12,955 nucleotides of DNA, from the NCBI GenBank assembly GCA_016840465.1, contig JAEOSH010000057.1:1-12955 (forward strand). The letters run 5' to 3'. This DNA is from Candidatus Baldrarchaeum yapensis. GTDB taxonomy: Archaea; Asgardarchaeota; Baldrarchaeia; Baldrarchaeales; Baldrarchaeaceae. The notes under the pieces were generated by a model. That model had not been told where the DNA came from. It did not search any database and saw only the letters and a program-made list of their open reading frames with translations. Positions 2,505 through 11,552 of this stretch are shown here, in pieces. Within the stretch, counting starts at the first letter, position 1, and every line of letters starts with the position of its first letter. Both the position numbers and the translations under genes were made by a program.

Positions 2505-2579
2505 ATACAAGAAACTCTTTCTTCAACATTCTTCCAGAAAAATAGGTGAATGAAATGTATTTGTTTTCTTATTGCTTAA

Positions 2580-2804
2580 TTACTTTCTCATGAACTGGCT
2601 GTATGCCAACTTTATGTCTGCGCCGGTGACCGTCTTTCTTCCGGCATGTGCAGCAATATCCTTGGCTCTTTTCGCGATTTCTACCGCGATGTCCTCGATA
2701 ATCTCTCTTAGAGCCTGCGCAGCTGATGCGCTAACTCGTCTTCCACCAGCGCGTCTCATTATCCTGTCGATTGGTGCGAGTGGAAGTTCGGCCTCCTTGG
2801 GCAT
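2580..2804 (-). CDS. Archaeal histone (HMf-type single histone fold)
   Basis: This is a small DNA-wrapping chromatin protein of 74 residues, a single histone fold (helix 1, long helix 2, helix 3) with no tails, as in HMfA/HMfB. Visible landmarks are ELPLAPIDRIMRRAG (helix 1 and loop), RVS at the first loop, a long central helix rich in I, A and E/K, and AGRKTVTGADIKLA at the second loop, whose Arg-Asp pair is the conserved structural salt bridge. The reading frame also has GTG at 2813, but ATG at 2804 is preferred because GGGGTGA (2810-2816) lies five bases before it, and because the product then starts as histones usually do. It is a monocistronic gene convergent with pheT. A TATA-like ATTAATAAAGG on the minus strand around 2877-2886 could be its promoter, but that is weak. 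Confidence 0.95.
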   Translation of the reverse strand: MPKEAELPLAPIDRIMRRAGGRRVSASAAQALREIIEDIAVEIAKRAKDIAAHAGRKTVTGADIKLAYSQFMRK

Positions 2805-2809
2805 AGCAT

Positions 2810-2816
2810 TCACCCC
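2810..2816 (-). promoter_or_regulatory. Shine-Dalgarno site deciding the histone start
   Basis: Minus strand GGGGTGA is five bases before ATG at 2804. It overlaps the alternative in-frame GTG (2813), which therefore cannot use it. Confidence 0.7.
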
Positions 2817-3239
2817 ATGACCTCACGCATTCTAACATTTGTTGCTTACACTCAAGATCGAAATGTGACCTCTTTCCTTTATTAATCTACCGCACAAGAT
2901 TAGCGATAGTAGCTATTTACTACACATACCATCAACCATGATGGGTAGAATGTACTACTAATGAGGCTCATGCATCTTAGTGACCTTTTATAGCTATCAT
3001 CAATCCGTTCCCATATCAATACTTCTTATTACTCCTAGTGTATAGTTTTGCTTGTTTGTAAGCATAATTATCCGACCATATGCATGATGTCATGTCATTT
3101 CTCGATTTTTTCATTATTATAATCTAATATTCAAAGATGCGAAAAATTTAATGTAGAATATACGTCAATTACAATTTTTTCCGTAATATTTAATATAGTC
3201 GTGCAATAAATCCATTAAGCTATCAATTGGTGAATCATT
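2817..3239. other. AT-rich spacer, no gene seen
   Basis: About 420 bases of AT-rich DNA, with stops in all frames and no tRNA-like or repeated structure that I can see. It must contain the histone promoter (minus) and, at its right end, a possible promoter for the short coding-like segment starting at 3240. I see TAATATTTAATATAG near 3184-3198, but many such AT runs occur here. Confidence 0.5.
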
Positions 3240-3308
3240 ATGTCATTAAGAAGGCATAAACCCCAAGTACCTTCTATTCGTAAACAAATCCATCATTATA
3301 ACTTGTGA
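3240..3308 (+). pseudogene. Possible 5' fragment of a decayed gene
   Basis: A 22-codon open stretch begins at ATG 3240 (MSLRRHKPQVPSIRKQ...) and ends at TGA 3306-3308. It has a good Shine-Dalgarno GGTGA (3229-3233) six bases upstream, which suggests that this was a real translation start. It stops exactly where the GC-rich structured block begins. Coding-like sequence on the same strand resumes after that block, so this may be the N-terminal remnant of the same broken gene. It could equally be a chance short ORF. Confidence 0.25.
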
Positions 3309-3563
3309 TAACAACCATGTGACGGAAGTCTTCCGGACTCCCGTGGGGATCTTCCACGAGCAATGAGGTTGTTAAACCGTTCTGACTCTCCGCCACTTTT
3401 GTTGCAATTGACGCGTGCGTGGCGGAGAGCCTTCCCGTCTCGGGGTCCATCGACGGGCTTTCGCGGGGAGCGGTGCTCCGTACATCCATCTGACCCCCTT
3501 CGCTCCGCCCTTTCGGGCCTCCCTCCCTCTCACCGTCCCTCCCACATCCCGGGCGGAGCCCGC
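3305..3563 (-). ncRNA. Candidate structured RNA, GC-rich, family unknown
   Basis: A sharply GC-rich block of about 260 bases inside AT-rich spacer. On the minus strand it can form several strong helices. An 11-bp perfect stem pairs 3419-3429 with 3386-3396, and G·U plus G-C pairs possible only on this strand extend it. A 6-bp stem pairs 3452-3457 with 3434-3439, and GGAGC/GCTCC pairs within 3467-3479. A 9-bp stem pairs 3551-3559 with 3502-3510, competing with a GCCC-GAAA-GGGC hairpin. An 8-bp stem pairs 3367-3374 with 3309-3316. A TATA-like CCTTATAAAG (3590-3581) lies about 25 bases before the predicted 5' end near 3563. I found no SRP RNA motifs (helix 8 GGAA loop plus AGCA, or UGUAAC) and no RNase P core (GAGGAAAGUCC with ACAGAA). 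It might instead be an inserted element, because coding-like fragments flank it. Confidence 0.5.
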
Positions 3564-3565
3564 TT

Positions 3566-4188
3566 AACACAACAGAAGTCCTTTATAAGGGTTTTGAGGT
3601 TGCAAAGGTGCATGAGGGCAGCAAATGCAACACTATACGTTTCTGCCTCAGCACAATGAAACATATTTCTGATGGAGGATATTACTACCGAAAGGAAGTT
3701 AACCCAAATTGTTACTTAGTTGTTGATAGAGGATAAGTATTGACATCTTGAATTCATAAACCCCGACTATAGCCGCGAATTTGCATTCACGGAGCCTAAT
3801 GGTCACACAGTAAAAAAGAATATCTATGAATACCATCCACGTGGGATATTTATTTGGTTACTGTAAAACTTTCCGGCCAGTATTACCGCTGGCATCCATA
3901 AAGGCTCGCATGGTAACTCCTCTAGCGATGGCCTTCTAACAGGCCAATATCAAGTATAACAGATGACATCACATTAATTAAGAAAATAATGCTTGAAAAT
4001 TCCGAAGATGTCCCCGTGACGGACAAATATGTGGCTACATGGAGGATTTTTGAAGTCGATAATGTTGTTAAGGATTAGAAGTAGTAAGTCTTGCCGCAAA
4101 AAAAGTATTGAGGAACATTGCCTTAAGAATTGAAATGGGAAAATCGTTCAAGGCGAGCGAGGAACAAATTAATATACTGATAAGCTAG
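3566..4188 (+). pseudogene. Decayed protein-coding gene, function unknown
   Basis: No intact ORF exists here, but successive frames look like protein. Frame pieces are: 3566-3736 (contains KGFEVAKVHEGSKCNTIRF and YYYRKEVNPNCYLVVDRG); 3744 to about 3860, in a different frame (HLEFINPDYSREFAF, KKNIYEYHPRGIFIW, then a stop); about 3864-3955, same frame (NFPASITAGIHKGSHG); about 3926-4078, shifted again (EDVPVTDKYVATWRIFEVD); and 4072-4188, shifted once more (SLAAKKVLRNIALRIEMG, ending at TAG). Frameshifts fall near 3735, 3940 and 4072, with internal stops. The pieces follow one another on one strand, as expected for a gene losing function or for sequencing errors. I recognise no domain. The 22-codon fragment at 3240 may be its start, separated from it by the GC-rich block. 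Confidence 0.4.
3581..3590 (-). promoter_or_regulatory. TATA-like box for the candidate RNA
   Basis: Minus strand CCTTATAAAG matches the archaeal TATA-box consensus and sits about 25 bases upstream of the GC-rich block. It could be coincidental, because the plus strand here reads as part of a decayed coding frame. Confidence 0.4.
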
Positions 4189-4273
4189 TCATCATTGACA
4201 ATCCTTCATTATGCAACTTTCACAAATGAGTTCCAGCGCTTCAATCAGAATCCATACTTTGGAGAGTAGCAAT

Positions 4274-5506: not shown

Positions 5507-6262
5507 TTATAGCAACAGAATTATTCCCATCATGAAGAGTAGTGCGGAGAGTGTATAGAGTATGTAGCGGTCTGGAATTTTATGGTTTATGAAGAAACCC
5601 ATTGTAACACCGGGTATCGATCCCATCAAAAGCGTGAGAACCAAGAATATGTCGACATTTCCAATGATTGCATGTATGATTGCGGCCAATGACGTGACTA
5701 CAAAACTGTACACCATGTCGGTGCCTACAATCTTTCCGCCCTTCTTCATGAAGCGAAGAAGAACAAGAGCGAGAATCGTTCCACTTCCGACAGATGTGAA
5801 CACCACAACCACTCCTATTAGGAATCCTACAAATACGAAAAACACCCAGTTATACTCCTGAGCACGATATAATCGCTCTTTCTTGTCATTTCCTCTATAC
5901 AATCTGATTATATGAAGAGTAGAAGTTAAGATGAGTATCGACGAGAGCAAGTACCTTATAACAAGGTTCACAATGGTAGATTGCATTATGGTTCGTAGAA
6001 TCAACGCACTAATCACAATGGACGGTATTGTTCCCATCAAGAGGGGAGCCACTATTTTGAATTCGACCTTCCTAGACTTCATGTAAAGTGATGAGCCCAC
6101 CCCTCTTGTTATCGACATGTAAAGAAGATCAGATCCCACTGCGCGTATTGGGGGAACTCCTAGTAGCATGAGAGCGGGTGTAAGGACAGCACCTCCTCCC
6201 ATTCCGCTAAGTCCTATTAACATTCCAATTACGAAACCTAAAAGTATGATAAGAGGGTTCAT
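5507..6262 (-). CDS. TauE/SafE-family membrane permease
   Basis: An integral membrane protein of 251 residues, almost wholly hydrophobic, with about seven to eight membrane segments. The family's internal duplication is visible: GLSGMGGGAVLTPALMLLG with AVGSDL (about 17-45) is echoed by FTSVGSGTILALVLL with VGTDMV (about 155-184). TauE/SafE proteins move sulfite, sulfonates or related anions across the membrane. In this operon with ATP sulfurylase and APS kinase, transport of sulfate or another sulfur oxyanion is the natural inference, but neither direction nor substrate is shown by sequence. Its ATG at 6262 is preceded by GGTGA with a spacer of about six bases, and it lies 14 bases downstream of the apsK stop. 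Confidence 0.85.
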   Translation of the reverse strand: MNPLIILLGFVIGMLIGLSGMGGGAVLTPALMLLGVPPIRAVGSDLLYMSITRGVGSSLYMKSRKVEFKIVAPLLMGTIPSIVISALILRTIMQSTIVNLVIRYLLSSILILTSTLHIIRLYRGNDKKERLYRAQEYNWVFFVFVGFLIGVVVVFTSVGSGTILALVLLRFMKKGGKIVGTDMVYSFVVTSLAAIIHAIIGNVDIFLVLTLLMGSIPGVTMGFFINHKIPDRYILYTLSALLFMMGIILLL

Positions 6263-6276
6263 GAGTTTTCACCGGA

Positions 6277-6816
6277 TTATTGTAAGCAACCAAGTTTGCG
6301 GAGCGTCTCCAATATTTTCCTAGAACACTCCTCGGGGTTCTCATGTTCTGTATCTACGATAACTTCCGGTTTTTCAGGCTCCTCATAGACGTCCTGTATC
6401 CCAGTCATGTTCTTTATTTCCCCACTGAGTGCCTTCTTATACAGTCCTTTCGGATCCCTGCGTATGCACTCCTCTAAGCTACATTTTACATACACTTCCA
6501 CGAATTTTAACCCCTCCTGCTCGATTATTCTCCTTGCTTCCTCTCTTATGCTCCGATAAGGAGAAACAAAGGACGCTACCACCGCAACGCCATTTCTCGC
6601 TAATAGCTTGGAAACGTATGCAACTCTTCTGAGGTGTCTTTCCCTGTCCTCCCTGCTAAAGCCCGCCTCGGGACTAAGCCACTTTCTTACCTCGTCCCCA
6701 TCTAAAAGTTCAACCTTTAGCCCCATTTCCTTAAGATGTCGCTCAAGGTGTCGAGCAATAGTGGTCTTACCGGATCCAGGCAGTCCCGTTAGCCATACGA
6801 CAAACCCCTTCTCCAT
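6277..6816 (-). CDS. cysC: Adenylylsulfate (APS) kinase
   Basis: Phosphorylates adenosine 5'-phosphosulfate at the 3' position with ATP to give PAPS; cytosolic. The protein is 179 residues, a full-length single-domain enzyme. P-loop GLPGSGKTT is at 11-19. LDGDEVR (38-44) and GFSREDRERHLRRVA are APS-binding stretches, FVSPYR (83-88) holds the conserved Ser of the family, and KGLYKKA with a lid-like segment ending in GIQDVYEEP are further signatures. The start chosen is the second of two adjacent ATGs (6816), five bases after GGAGGTG (6822-6828). The upstream phosphodiesterase stop overlaps it as TGATG, so translation is coupled. The product of the neighbouring sat gene is its substrate; pulling APS onward overcomes the unfavourable sulfurylase equilibrium. 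Confidence 0.95.
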   Translation of the reverse strand: MEKGFVVWLTGLPGSGKTTIARHLERHLKEMGLKVELLDGDEVRKWLSPEAGFSREDRERHLRRVAYVSKLLARNGVAVVASFVSPYRSIREEARRIIEQEGLKFVEVYVKCSLEECIRRDPKGLYKKALSGEIKNMTGIQDVYEEPEKPEVIVDTEHENPEECSRKILETLRKLGCLQ

Positions 6817-8204
6817 CATAACACCTCCTCTATTACCCTCCCCTCCATTGTTGGTGGCACGGAGATCCCCATGAGTTTTAAAACCGTGGGCGCAATATCA
6901 AGGATATTCACATCCACCCTTCTACCGTTTAGGTTTCTACGAGGGTCAAAAAAGATGAAAATTCCATCATAGTCGTGCACCGCATCATCGGGTCCCGTGT
7001 CATTTTCCGGCAGATAAAGGGTATTATGACCTATTGTTCCGGCGGACCTCCAGTAAAGGTCATCAAAGTAGACCATTAGGTCCGGCGGCTCCCCCTTACA
7101 AACGGGGTATAATTCCTCGGGCTTAAAGACCTTAGTGTTCCACTTTTCGCCATTCGGTCCCCTTATATTCAGAATTTTCCGCTTCAGTTCCTCCCTAACG
7201 CGCTCATAGTCTTCCGGATCTACAACTCCACTCTTTTCTCTTCCCTTCACATTTATGAAAATCCTCGCATAGTACCCACCCCATCCCCATGCGATAGTAT
7301 TTTCCCAGTCGACATCCGCCTTTTCGAGATCTGTGACCTTTTCGGGCCGCTTCTTCAGCTTCAGGTACCCCTCCTTTATCAACCACTCATTTATGCAGAA
7401 AGCCCCCTTCATCCTCTTCGCACCATGATCTGATACCACAAAAACCACAGTGTCATCGTCTATCAGCGATAGTATTTCTCCCACTTCTCGGTCGAGGTAC
7501 TTGTAGTAGTCCCTGATCACGTTTTCGTACTTCGTCCCCGGCTGGTAGAGATGATGCTCCTTATCAAAGAACTTCCAGAAGGCGTGTTGTATCCTGTCGA
7601 GACCTATCTCGACAAACATGAAGAAATCCCAGGGCTTCTCTGTCAGAAGGTACTTTATCACCTTAAACCTCTTCTCCGTCATTTCATATATTTCCCTTAG
7701 CACGGCATCCCTATCTTCTCGCCTGAAGGGCACATCTATTATGTACTCGCCCACTAGCCGCTCTATCTCCTCCTTAAGTTCTGGCGGATACGTGTACTCC
7801 CTCTTAGTGTCAGGAGTCATGAGGCAGGAAATCAGCCATCCATTGACGCGAGGCGGCGGATATGTTGGTGGGACACCAACGAGACAGACCTTCCTTCCTC
7901 TCTCACCTATGTAGTCCCATATCTTTTTCACTTTTATCGACCGAGATGATGGTAGAGATATCTCCGTGTACGAGTACCTCTTCCTGTGCCTAAACCCATA
8001 GAGCCCCAATCTTCCTGGATTAACACTCGTAACCATGACTATCCACGCAGGTATCGTTATAGGAGGATCGCAGGATCTCAATTTTCCATATGCTCCCCTC
8101 TCTATCAGCTCCCTCAGGTTCGGGAGATCTTCCCTGAATTGCTCGAAGACAAGTTGCGGAGCTGCGGCATCTAACCCGATTATCAAAACTTTCCTTCCAT
8201 TCAA
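6816..8204 (-). CDS. Type I phosphodiesterase / nucleotide pyrophosphatase (alkaline phosphatase superfamily)
   Basis: A metal-dependent phosphoryl- or sulfuryl-transfer hydrolase of 462 residues. The two-zinc alkaline phosphatase superfamily ligands can be traced: Asp12 (GLDAAAP), nucleophile Thr50 in PPITIPAW followed by TSVNPG, Asp203 and His207 (LDRIQHAFW), Asp259-His260 (VVSDHG) and His410 (AVHDYDGIFI). The family C terminus is LDIAPTVLKLMGISVP. There is no signal peptide, so it is probably cytosolic. The substrate is unknown. Lying between sat and APS kinase, it might act on a nucleotide by-product or a sulfated/phosphodiester compound made with PAPS, which is inference. The frame is open to 8246, overlapping sat, but TTG 8204 is chosen because an optimal Shine-Dalgarno lies six bases upstream and the Rossmann-like strand starts right after it. 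Confidence 0.9.
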   Translation of the reverse strand: MNGRKVLIIGLDAAAPQLVFEQFREDLPNLRELIERGAYGKLRSCDPPITIPAWIVMVTSVNPGRLGLYGFRHRKRYSYTEISLPSSRSIKVKKIWDYIGERGRKVCLVGVPPTYPPPRVNGWLISCLMTPDTKREYTYPPELKEEIERLVGEYIIDVPFRREDRDAVLREIYEMTEKRFKVIKYLLTEKPWDFFMFVEIGLDRIQHAFWKFFDKEHHLYQPGTKYENVIRDYYKYLDREVGEILSLIDDDTVVFVVSDHGAKRMKGAFCINEWLIKEGYLKLKKRPEKVTDLEKADVDWENTIAWGWGGYYARIFINVKGREKSGVVDPEDYERVREELKRKILNIRGPNGEKWNTKVFKPEELYPVCKGEPPDLMVYFDDLYWRSAGTIGHNTLYLPENDTGPDDAVHDYDGIFIFFDPRRNLNGRRVDVNILDIAPTVLKLMGISVPPTMEGRVIEEVL

Positions 8205-8210
8205 GATATG

Positions 8211-8220
8211 AACCTCCTTT
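8211..8220 (-). promoter_or_regulatory. Shine-Dalgarno site deciding the phosphodiesterase start
   Basis: Minus strand AAAGGAGGTT sits between the sat stop (8224-8226) and TTG 8204 with a six-base spacer. It rules out the longer frame starting inside sat. Confidence 0.85.
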
Positions 8221-8223
8221 CGG

Positions 8224-9372
8224 TCACTCCACAAATGGGTTTTCAAATTGGAAAATAGCCTCCGCCACCTCAGGCCTCATGAACTCTGGTGGCGGCGTTT
8301 TGCCGCTCCTTATCATCTCCCTAATCTTTGTTCCACTAAACCGCAACCTAAAGGACTCATCATGAGGGCACACTCTCTCATTGACAATTGCACCACACTT
8401 TCTGCAGTAAAAGAACTCTCTGAAGAAGAGAGGGGTTATCCCCAGATCCGGAAACTCCTTGAATATTTCCTGTGCCTCGTAAGGACCGTAGTAGTTTCCA
8501 ACCCCCGCGTGATCACGCCCAACTATAAAGTGCGTACACCCAAAGTTCTTCCTCATGATCGCATGATGAATAGCCTCCCGGGGACCCGCATACCGCATCT
8601 CATAACGCACTATACTCAAAACCGCAGACTCCCGGGGGTAATAATTTCTAAGGAGAACCTCGTAGGCCGATAGTATAACATCGTCCCTAAAATCGCCGCG
8701 CTTTTTCCTACCTATAACCGGATTTATGAAAAGACCATCCACGAAAACGAGTGCTGACTTCTGAAGGTACTCATGACCAAGATGAGGAACATTTCTTGTC
8801 TGAAATCCAACTACGGTCTTCCATCCCCTCTCCCTGAACAGCACCCGCGTCTCAACCGGCCTTAATGTGTATCTTTCAAAGGGGTTCGGTGGATCATTAA
8901 TGAGATCAACTCTGCCGCCGATCAAGTATTTTCCCATGGAGAAAACCTTCGCAACACCGGGATGTGCGAGATCTGTTGTCTTAAACACGCATCTCGCAAA
9001 TCTTTCCTTGTCATATACGTAAATCTCCTCAACATGCAACACTGCAACTGGAATGTCTTCATAATACAGCATCACATCGTCACCGGGCTCTATTCTTGCC
9101 GCGGTTTTCTCATCAATGTCTAGCACTATCGGAATCGTCCACGGAAGATCATTTGGCAGACGCATGTCATCTAGAACGCTCAGAAACTCCTCTTCTAACA
9201 TGAAACCCTCAAGTGGACTGTATACACCGTAAGCTATGTTCTCGGCATCGAATGCCCTTCCCTGATCAATATTCAACCTTTCGAACTCGTCTACCTCCTC
9301 CAATATTCTCTCTCGCCTCTTGGACGCAAGCACCCTGTTGACAAGCCTACCTCCATGTGGCCTCGATATCAT
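8224..9372 (-). CDS. sat: Sulfate adenylyltransferase (ATP sulfurylase)
   Basis: Converts ATP and sulfate to APS and pyrophosphate (or the reverse); cytosolic. At 382 residues it is the homo-oligomeric prokaryotic Sat type, without a C-terminal kinase domain. Active-site motifs are QTRNVPHLGHE (about 191-201), GRDHAGVG (about 285-292) and FSGTKIREMIRSGKTPP (about 345-361). A four-ligand zinc-type site is visible in CRKCG and VCPHD (Cys about 323, 326, 335; His about 337), as known in several Sat enzymes. ATG 9372 is preferred over GTG 9381 because GGGGTG (9379-9384) is six bases upstream; this site shares its first base with the TAG stop of the preceding gene, so translation is coupled. The adjoining APS kinase points to PAPS formation rather than dissimilation: no apr or dsr genes are visible. 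Confidence 0.97.
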   Translation of the reverse strand: MISRPHGGRLVNRVLASKRRERILEEVDEFERLNIDQGRAFDAENIAYGVYSPLEGFMLEEEFLSVLDDMRLPNDLPWTIPIVLDIDEKTAARIEPGDDVMLYYEDIPVAVLHVEEIYVYDKERFARCVFKTTDLAHPGVAKVFSMGKYLIGGRVDLINDPPNPFERYTLRPVETRVLFRERGWKTVVGFQTRNVPHLGHEYLQKSALVFVDGLFINPVIGRKKRGDFRDDVILSAYEVLLRNYYPRESAVLSIVRYEMRYAGPREAIHHAIMRKNFGCTHFIVGRDHAGVGNYYGPYEAQEIFKEFPDLGITPLFFREFFYCRKCGAIVNERVCPHDESFRLRFSGTKIREMIRSGKTPPPEFMRPEVAEAIFQFENPFVE

Positions 9373-9383
9373 ATTACACACCC

Positions 9384-9966: not shown

Positions 9967-9988
9967 GTGAGTTTAAAAATTTACTCAC
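9967..9988 (-). promoter_or_regulatory. tRNA-Gly TATA box inside a small inverted repeat
   Basis: The TATA-like AATTTTTAAA (9981-9972) is flanked by GTGAGT (9967-9972) and ACTCAC (9983-9988), a 6-bp inverted repeat. Position relative to the tRNA fits an archaeal promoter; the meaning of the repeat is unknown. Confidence 0.45.
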
Positions 9989-10108: not shown

Positions 10109-10137
10109 GAAAAATAAAAAATGCCCCTTCGAGGGGC
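10109..10137 (-). terminator. Hairpin plus T-run ending the candidate RNA
   Basis: On the minus strand GCCCCTCGAAGGGGC (10137-10123) is itself a hairpin, and is followed by ATTTTTTATTTTT, which resembles an intrinsic terminator. Its strand can alternatively pair with the 5' end of the RNA as P1. Confidence 0.65.
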
Positions 10138-10284
10138 AGAACTGATCCGCTACCTTCCGTGGCTCCTCAGGGCCCCAGCCCCTTGGAACCCCGGAAGTTC
10201 ACGGATCTTTGAGCCACCTCTCTGCAGAGTCCTCTCGGACCCTACAGTTTGGTGGCACCGTTCCGCCCCTCGAAGGGGCATTTA
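10109..10284 (-). ncRNA. Candidate orphan structured RNA: three-way junction closed by a long helix
   Basis: The minus strand folds into three helices. P1 closes the molecule: 10265-10282 pairs perfectly with 10120-10137 (18 bp), and extends outward by two A-U and inward by five pairs including one G·U (25 bp in all). P2 is GCCACC/GGUGGC (10256-10251 with 10218-10213), a 3x3 internal loop AAA/AGA, then 11 bp (10247-10237 with 10232-10222, two wobbles) capped by GAGA. P3 is GAUCCG/CGGAUC (10207-10202, 10149-10144), CUUCCG/CGGAAG (10197-10192, 10159-10154), GGUUCC/GGAGCC (10190-10185, 10166-10161) and AGGG/CCCU. The wobble pairs would be A·C mismatches on the other strand, so minus is the transcript. 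A TATA-like TTTATTA lies about 25 bases upstream and a T-rich run follows the last helix. It matches no RNA family I know; SRP and RNase P motifs are absent. No protein gene follows directly. Confidence 0.75.
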
Positions 10285-10300
10285 TTACTATAGTGCAGGG

Positions 10301-10314
10301 GTCTAATAAACTTT
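10301..10314 (-). promoter_or_regulatory. TATA-like box of the candidate RNA
   Basis: Minus strand AAAGTTTATTAGAC; the TTTATTA core (10310-10304) is about 25 bases before the first base of the closing helix (10282-10284), which is normal archaeal TATA-to-start spacing. Confidence 0.6.
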
Positions 10315-10440
10315 TGTATTACTCAACGACTAAGAGAACAAATTTTTATTTTTGTAAAAATGATGCTTGTCATATGCAAAAGTTTATGGTTAATAAATGT
10401 TGACGAAGAAAATTTCGCATGTAATAAAGGAGTAGTGCTG

Positions 10441-11484
10441 TCACGTTGATGCATATCCTCCGTATTTGAATTCTATTTCTCTGTTCAGTATCTGGCAGGC
10501 GAGTGTGGACTTCTGATAGGCTCTTTCCATCTCGATTTCACAATTCCGTCCATATAACGTAATTATGATTTTGTTTTCGAGGGGTTGCACAGATATTTCC
10601 TCTACATTTTGCTCTTGTGAGTAGTCCAAGGCATCGGATATTCTTAATAGTGCTGACAGTTTTACTATAGTGTCCTTGAATTCCTCCTGAAGTTTATTAT
10701 TCTCACGGGGGTCTCCCGCCTTTGTACGGTGATACAATGCGACCCATTTGATAATTTCCACATCTGATGAGGACAGCACTCCTTTTATCGTTTCTTTCTC
10801 CTTTTCTATTAGGTTAAAAGTATGGATGTGGTGATGTGCTTCATCCACTTGGACTCCTATATCGTGGAGGACGGACGCAAATATTAGATGTCTTAAGGTG
10901 TCCTCTTTCAAATCGAGTTGTGCTTTTAATCCGTCAAACAGCATAATTGAGAGTTCAGCAACTCTAGCCGCATGCTCTATGCCTCTTCCGTAGTTATACT
11001 TTTCAGCAAGCTGAAGCACCGTTTCTATTTCGCGAGATTGAGCGACTGATATGAGCCTCTCGAAGAGTTGCAGCGTTCTTTCCTGCTTCCAAGATTCAGG
11101 AAACAGCAAGATGTCCTTTGCCACCTCATCACACGCCTCTTCGAAACTCTTTTTTCCGAAAAGCATGAGGTATGCTGCGGCAATTGTTCTACTCCTGCCA
11201 ATTCCGCCGTGACAGTGTACAAGCACCTTCTTCTTGTTTCTTATTTTATCAGCAATCCACGAAACTATCTTATAGAGCTGTAGCAGGTTGGGGGCTCCAA
11301 AATCAGGCACTGGAGTATGGAGCACTTCGACTCCATGTTTTTTCCACAGTATTGGGTCATATGTGAGTTCATAGGGCTGCACTAGGATGATCACAGCATC
11401 GAATTCTTCCGAGAGGGATGGAATCTCGCGCTTGGATGGTTGAGGGGAAGTTGCAAGTTTACCCTTTATTATCCAGTTGCACAT
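10441..11484 (-). CDS. Dual-specificity phosphatase fused to a Ppx/GppA-like HD domain
   Basis: A 347-residue cytosolic two-domain protein. Residues about 1-150 are a cysteine-based dual-specificity/tyrosine phosphatase: the WIIKGKLATSPQP opening seen in archaeal members, general acid Asp61 (PVPDFGAP), and P-loop HCHGGIGRSR with Cys91 and Arg97. Residues about 165-345 are an HD-type domain like the C-terminal half of exopolyphosphatase/GppA: His171 (IEHAARVAELS), His207-Asp208 (ASVLHDIG), HHHIHTFNLI (about 217-226), ALYHR, and LLRISDALD. The usual Ppx/GppA N-terminal phosphatase fold is absent and replaced by the DSP domain. The substrate is unknown; a phosphoprotein, polyphosphate or nucleotide are possibilities. 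The frame opens at GTG 11502, but ATG 11484 has AAGGTGAT seven bases upstream. It is divergent from the next gene, 68 bases away. Confidence 0.85.
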   Translation of the reverse strand: MCNWIIKGKLATSPQPSKREIPSLSEEFDAVIILVQPYELTYDPILWKKHGVEVLHTPVPDFGAPNLLQLYKIVSWIADKIRNKKKVLVHCHGGIGRSRTIAAAYLMLFGKKSFEEACDEVAKDILLFPESWKQERTLQLFERLISVAQSREIETVLQLAEKYNYGRGIEHAARVAELSIMLFDGLKAQLDLKEDTLRHLIFASVLHDIGVQVDEAHHHIHTFNLIEKEKETIKGVLSSSDVEIIKWVALYHRTKAGDPRENNKLQEEFKDTIVKLSALLRISDALDYSQEQNVEEISVQPLENKIIITLYGRNCEIEMERAYQKSTLACQILNREIEFKYGGYAST

Positions 11485-11491
11485 TTGTATC

Positions 11492-11499
11492 ATCACCTT
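11492..11499 (-). promoter_or_regulatory. Shine-Dalgarno site deciding the DSP-HD start
   Basis: Minus strand AAGGTGAT lies seven bases before ATG 11484. The alternatives GTG 11502 and ATG 11493 overlap it or have no site upstream. Confidence 0.65.
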
Positions 11500-11552
11500 C
11501 ACTGTTAGGGGGTCTTAAACGTTGTAGGGCGCACGTTATATTGGGGATGAGG

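Follow-up and report, generated by a model that had tools for sequence, protein, structure and literature searches.

A predicted three-way-junction RNA encoded between a tRNA gene and a phosphatase gene in an Asgard archaeon

The segment at 10109-10284 of the DNA studied here raises the question of whether it encodes a structured RNA in its own right, as originally predicted, or owes its symmetry to something else. The window (the whole stretch of 12,955 nt that was analyzed) belongs to a 2.27 Mb genome, 96% complete, of the Baldrarchaeota order (Asgard). This genome is the sole member of its family among the genomes compared, and its PheT is 60-61% identical to the PheT of three deposited MAGs labelled Baldrarchaeota or Odinarchaeota. 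The explanation that we favor, with a probability of roughly one half, is a stand-alone minus-strand gene that is restricted to a family-level lineage of this order and encodes a very stable structured RNA of ~165 nt, likely acting in trans as a ribonucleoprotein scaffold or decoy.

Strength, anatomy and strand of the fold

The minus-strand sequence of 10109-10284 folds at -124 kcal/mol, compared with -64.5 ± 4.6 kcal/mol in dinucleotide shuffles (z -13). Against a background of 13,096 windows of 170 nt, drawn from 22 stretches (~275 kb) of the same genome, it lies at -8.9 SD after correction for G+C and is a clear extreme for the genome, the next unrelated windows reaching about -3.4 SD. The energy per nucleotide is -0.74 kcal/mol, versus -0.51 kcal/mol for the RNase P RNA and about -0.60 kcal/mol for the SRP RNA of the same genome (-190.6 kcal/mol over 319 nt for the latter). 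The predicted fold has an ensemble defect of 0.018 and is predicted to be unchanged at 70 °C. The G+C content of the RNA is 58%, compared with 40% and 29% in the flanks. The fold of the minus-strand RNA is real and far beyond chance.

The predicted RNA (10117-10284, minus strand; residue i = 10285 - window coordinate) takes the shape of a closed three-way junction, or Y, with a closing helix P1, an arm P2 and a four-segment arm P3. P1 pairs 10260-10283 with 10119-10142 (residues 2-25/143-166); the regular, three-armed architecture of the original prediction was borne out, but this helix has 24 bp, one of them G-U, and not 25 bp. P2 (10213-10256) consists of 6 bp (29-34/67-72), a 3x3 purine loop AAA/AGA, and the expected 11 bp (38-48/53-63) capped by a GAGA tetraloop (10236-10233). 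P3 (10144-10207) has the four segments anticipated for it, helices of 7, 6, 6 and 5 bp (78-84/135-141, 88-93/126-131, 95-100/119-124 and 103-107/112-116), which are interrupted by the loops GAA/GUA, G/A and AA/GA and closed by a UGGG end loop. The strands that join the three helices are 3, 5 and 1 nt long. A point beyond the original prediction is that each P1 strand is palindromic by itself: the 5' strand contains GCCCCUUCGAGGGGC, and the 3' strand forms a local hairpin, UGCCCCUCGAAGGGGCA, which is followed by a U-run and is therefore terminator-like.

The plus strand of the same interval also folds strongly (-100.5 kcal/mol, z -11). Because strong folds on both strands are expected for any inverted repeats, the assignment to the minus strand needs a separate argument. 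The difference in energy between the strands, 23.5 kcal/mol, falls in the top 2.8% of the genome windows and is only moderately unusual. Six of the 65 helix pairs are G-U (one in P1, two in P2 and three in P3), with A-C as their plus-strand counterparts, in keeping with the earlier claim that the wobbles of P1 and P2 fit the minus strand only. At the eight internal mismatches the minus strand has A-A, A-G or G-A, and the plus strand accordingly has two pyrimidines. Read on the minus strand, all 14 non-Watson-Crick oppositions are thus either G-U or between two purines, with no A-C and no pyrimidine-pyrimidine among them. A neutrally decaying palindrome should show both kinds of mismatch equally, and the two-sided odds of such a one-sided outcome are about 1 in 8,000 (2^-13) if each opposition is taken as independent and strand-neutral, or about 1 in 500 (2^-9) if each internal loop is counted once.

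Promoter-like and terminator-like elements and the neighboring genes

We infer transcription of the unit from elements that bracket the fold. A candidate archaeal promoter, read from this single sequence, lies at 10304-10319 on the minus strand and combines a BRE-like ATACAAAA with a TATA-like GTTTATTA (10311-10304), which places the predicted start near 10281, at the first A's of P1. In the minus-strand sequence ATACAAAAGTTTATTA, the center of the TATA-like element is ~26 bp upstream of 10281, the normal distance that had been claimed for it. The T-run described after the fold corresponds to a U6AU5 tract at 10121-10110, a candidate terminator that follows the last P1 pairs. As single-sequence readings, the two elements would fit an independent unit. 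The promoter-like 14-mer at 10306-10319 is repeated in inverted orientation at 10374-10387, 54 nt away, and CAAAAGTTTAT was found nowhere else in the loci examined; the pair is a possible divergent promoter or operator pair.

The unit stands, as originally described, between a tRNA gene and an unrelated protein gene. The tRNA-Gly(TCC), at 9940-9863, has its own candidate promoter, which makes the RNA unit separable from it; a near-perfect palindrome, GTGAGTTTAAAAATTTACTCAC, at 9967-9988 overlaps that promoter. The next gene upstream of the RNA (10441-11502) encodes a dual-specificity phosphatase (DSP) domain fused to an HD/Ppx-GppA-III-like domain, and a T5 tract between its stop codon and the RNA promoter could, judged from the sequence, be the end of the upstream mRNA. 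The neighbors of the unit all lie on one strand, the same as the RNA. Farther away, the minus strand of 5507-9381 carries a sulfate activation cluster with ATP sulfurylase, a type I phosphodiesterase, APS kinase and a TauE/SafE exporter, and 2505-4210 is a region of 1.7 kb without a convincing gene, in which a G+C-rich island near 3311-3500 folds at about -73 kcal/mol on the minus strand.

Searches for relatives and rival explanations

On both strands, at gathering and at permissive thresholds, Rfam returned only the tRNA-Gly and otherwise chance matches, in agreement with the claim that the RNA belongs to no known family. A DNA search of 59 relatives gave short chance matches only. A covariance model found only the RNA itself and its own complement in 227 Asgard genomes, although distant homologues could escape a model built on a single sequence; the result was the same in the 59 genomes and in a small batch of five, in which three order-mates were searched again. 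The comparison with related archaeal genomes that the original prediction called for therefore came out empty for both DNA and covariance searches. Collections of phages, plasmids and viral contigs contained no match to the RNA. The phosphatase/HD protein has an orthologue of the same length (41% identity) in the order-mate genome G003, where it has neither a structured neighbor nor a tRNA nearby, and a search of deposited genome contigs with the phosphatase gave no match. We found no catalogue of Asgard structured RNAs in the literature on Asgard non-coding or small RNAs. Overall, the prediction of an orphan structured RNA gene holds for the structure, the strand preference, the placement of promoter- and terminator-like elements, the isolation and the missing Rfam match, while the gene itself is something that we infer.

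A separate observation concerns the tip of P3. A 20-nt exact copy of it (TTCCAAGGGGCTGGGGCCCT) occurs in the same genome at contig 71:7859-7878 (E 0.001), in a small intergenic hairpin downstream of an AbrB-like/PIN-like gene pair whose domains were judged by eye. That hairpin is weak alone (z -1.5), contig 71 has no Rfam match, and, with up to one mismatch allowed, none of 118 other Asgard genomes contains the 18-nt core of the 20-mer. The shared 20-mer may be a common protein site or a product of chance.

Two rivals to a stand-alone RNA are serious. The main one, which we nevertheless consider improbable, is a relic with inverted repeats, MITE-like or otherwise, that ends in the P1 arms and is active or recognized as DNA, in a cruciform, and not as RNA. 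Terminal inverted repeats of 24-28 nt with palindromic arms, strong folding of both strands, a patchy distribution and raised G+C are what such a relic could leave behind. Yet the element is present in a single copy in the genome, no target-site duplication or direct repeat is visible in its flanks, so that it does not qualify as a MITE or insertion element, nothing similar occurs in the phage, plasmid and viral collections, and the one-sided mismatches favor the minus strand. An unlikely reading, too, is that the segment is a cis element between the phosphatase gene and the tRNA-Gly, a 3' untranslated or intergenic bidirectional terminator or stability element in which the P1 arms switch between local hairpins and the long helix. 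The palindromic P1 strands do allow both ends to fold local hairpins (about -11 to -12 kcal/mol) that score as terminator-like when read outward, and the common orientation of the neighbors suits this reading. With these hairpins enforced, however, the whole molecule reaches -101 kcal/mol, 23 kcal/mol worse than the long-helix form. The T5 tract separates the phosphatase stop codon from the RNA promoter, the order-mate orthologue lacks such a structure nearby, and archaeal termination can do without hairpins.

The remaining identities are far less probable. MAGs often miss rRNA genes, which weakens the main reason for placing the RNA, as a much diverged or expanded form, in a known family, first of all that of 5S rRNA: this family was singled out because no 5S gene was detected in the host assembly, RF00001 being unmatched in a 96%-complete genome although control archaea match. 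5S rRNA is likewise a closed three-way junction, and expanded forms occur in archaea (PMC7812874, PMC7530397). We regard this identity as very improbable, since even at E 10 neither strand matches RF00001, aligning the RNA locally with two archaeal 5S sequences gives no significant score (p 0.06-0.5), loops C and E are not recognizable, and expanded 5S rRNAs mostly retain their core (PMC7812874). The SRP and RNase P RNAs of the genome are located elsewhere, the only match to archaeal SRP RNA (RF01857) being C56:88422-88740 (E 2.7e-45) and the only match to archaeal RNase P RNA (RF00373) being C59:4328-4690 (E 6.3e-60). A short leaderless protein gene of 43 codons, with its ATG at 10281, is hardly credible: its frame does begin at the predicted transcription start, but a frame of this length can arise by chance at 58% G+C, it stops inside P3, and translation would be impeded by a fold that covers the unit from end to end. 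The use of RNA guides by an Asgard Argonaute (PMC11217426) suggested a guide precursor as a further candidate; nothing at this locus supports it.

Possible mode of action and comparison with known RNAs

The stand-alone RNA that we favor suggests a three-dimensional arrangement. Only 1 nt joins P1 to P3, and these two helices probably form an end-to-end stack, with P2, joined by 3 and 5 nt, as a side arm. The Lescoute-Westhof rules for three-way junctions predict the same stack and would have P2 bent along P3. In the third segment of P3, at equal depth, the tandem C-G pairs 99-120 and 100-119 could then serve as a docking site for the GAGA loop. The purine-rich symmetric internal loops may be protein or tertiary-contact sites. 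Since no long part of the RNA is left single-stranded for antisense pairing and no gene is obviously under its control in cis, it would most likely work in trans, as a ribonucleoprotein scaffold or decoy. The fuller picture, a new family of stand-alone Asgard structured RNA compacted by P2-P3 docking and forming the core of a novel ribonucleoprotein, is a tentative one. As an Asgard archaeon, the host is related to the ancestors of complex cells, and an RNA this stable without relatives would open a clear way into lineage-specific RNA biology close to where eukaryotes arose.

Among known systems, 5S rRNA (RF00001) shares the closed three-way junction with two long arms and is often a stand-alone gene in archaea, whereas this RNA has ~165 nt and lacks both a sequence or covariance match and a recognizable loop C or E. 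Archaeal SRP RNA also combines a long stacked helix with a side arm that carries a tetraloop, but this RNA has no S-domain motif and the genome has a separate SRP RNA. In retron ncRNA (msr-msd), inverted repeats likewise close an RNA with one short and one long arm; no retron family in Rfam matches the present RNA, and the host genome has no match to a reverse transcriptase (PF00078). As a functional analogy only, the RNA may be compared with VA RNA and EBER-type decoys, eukaryotic viral Pol III products that act in trans via protein binding and that resemble it in their ~160-170 nt, their high degree of pairing and their U-tract end.
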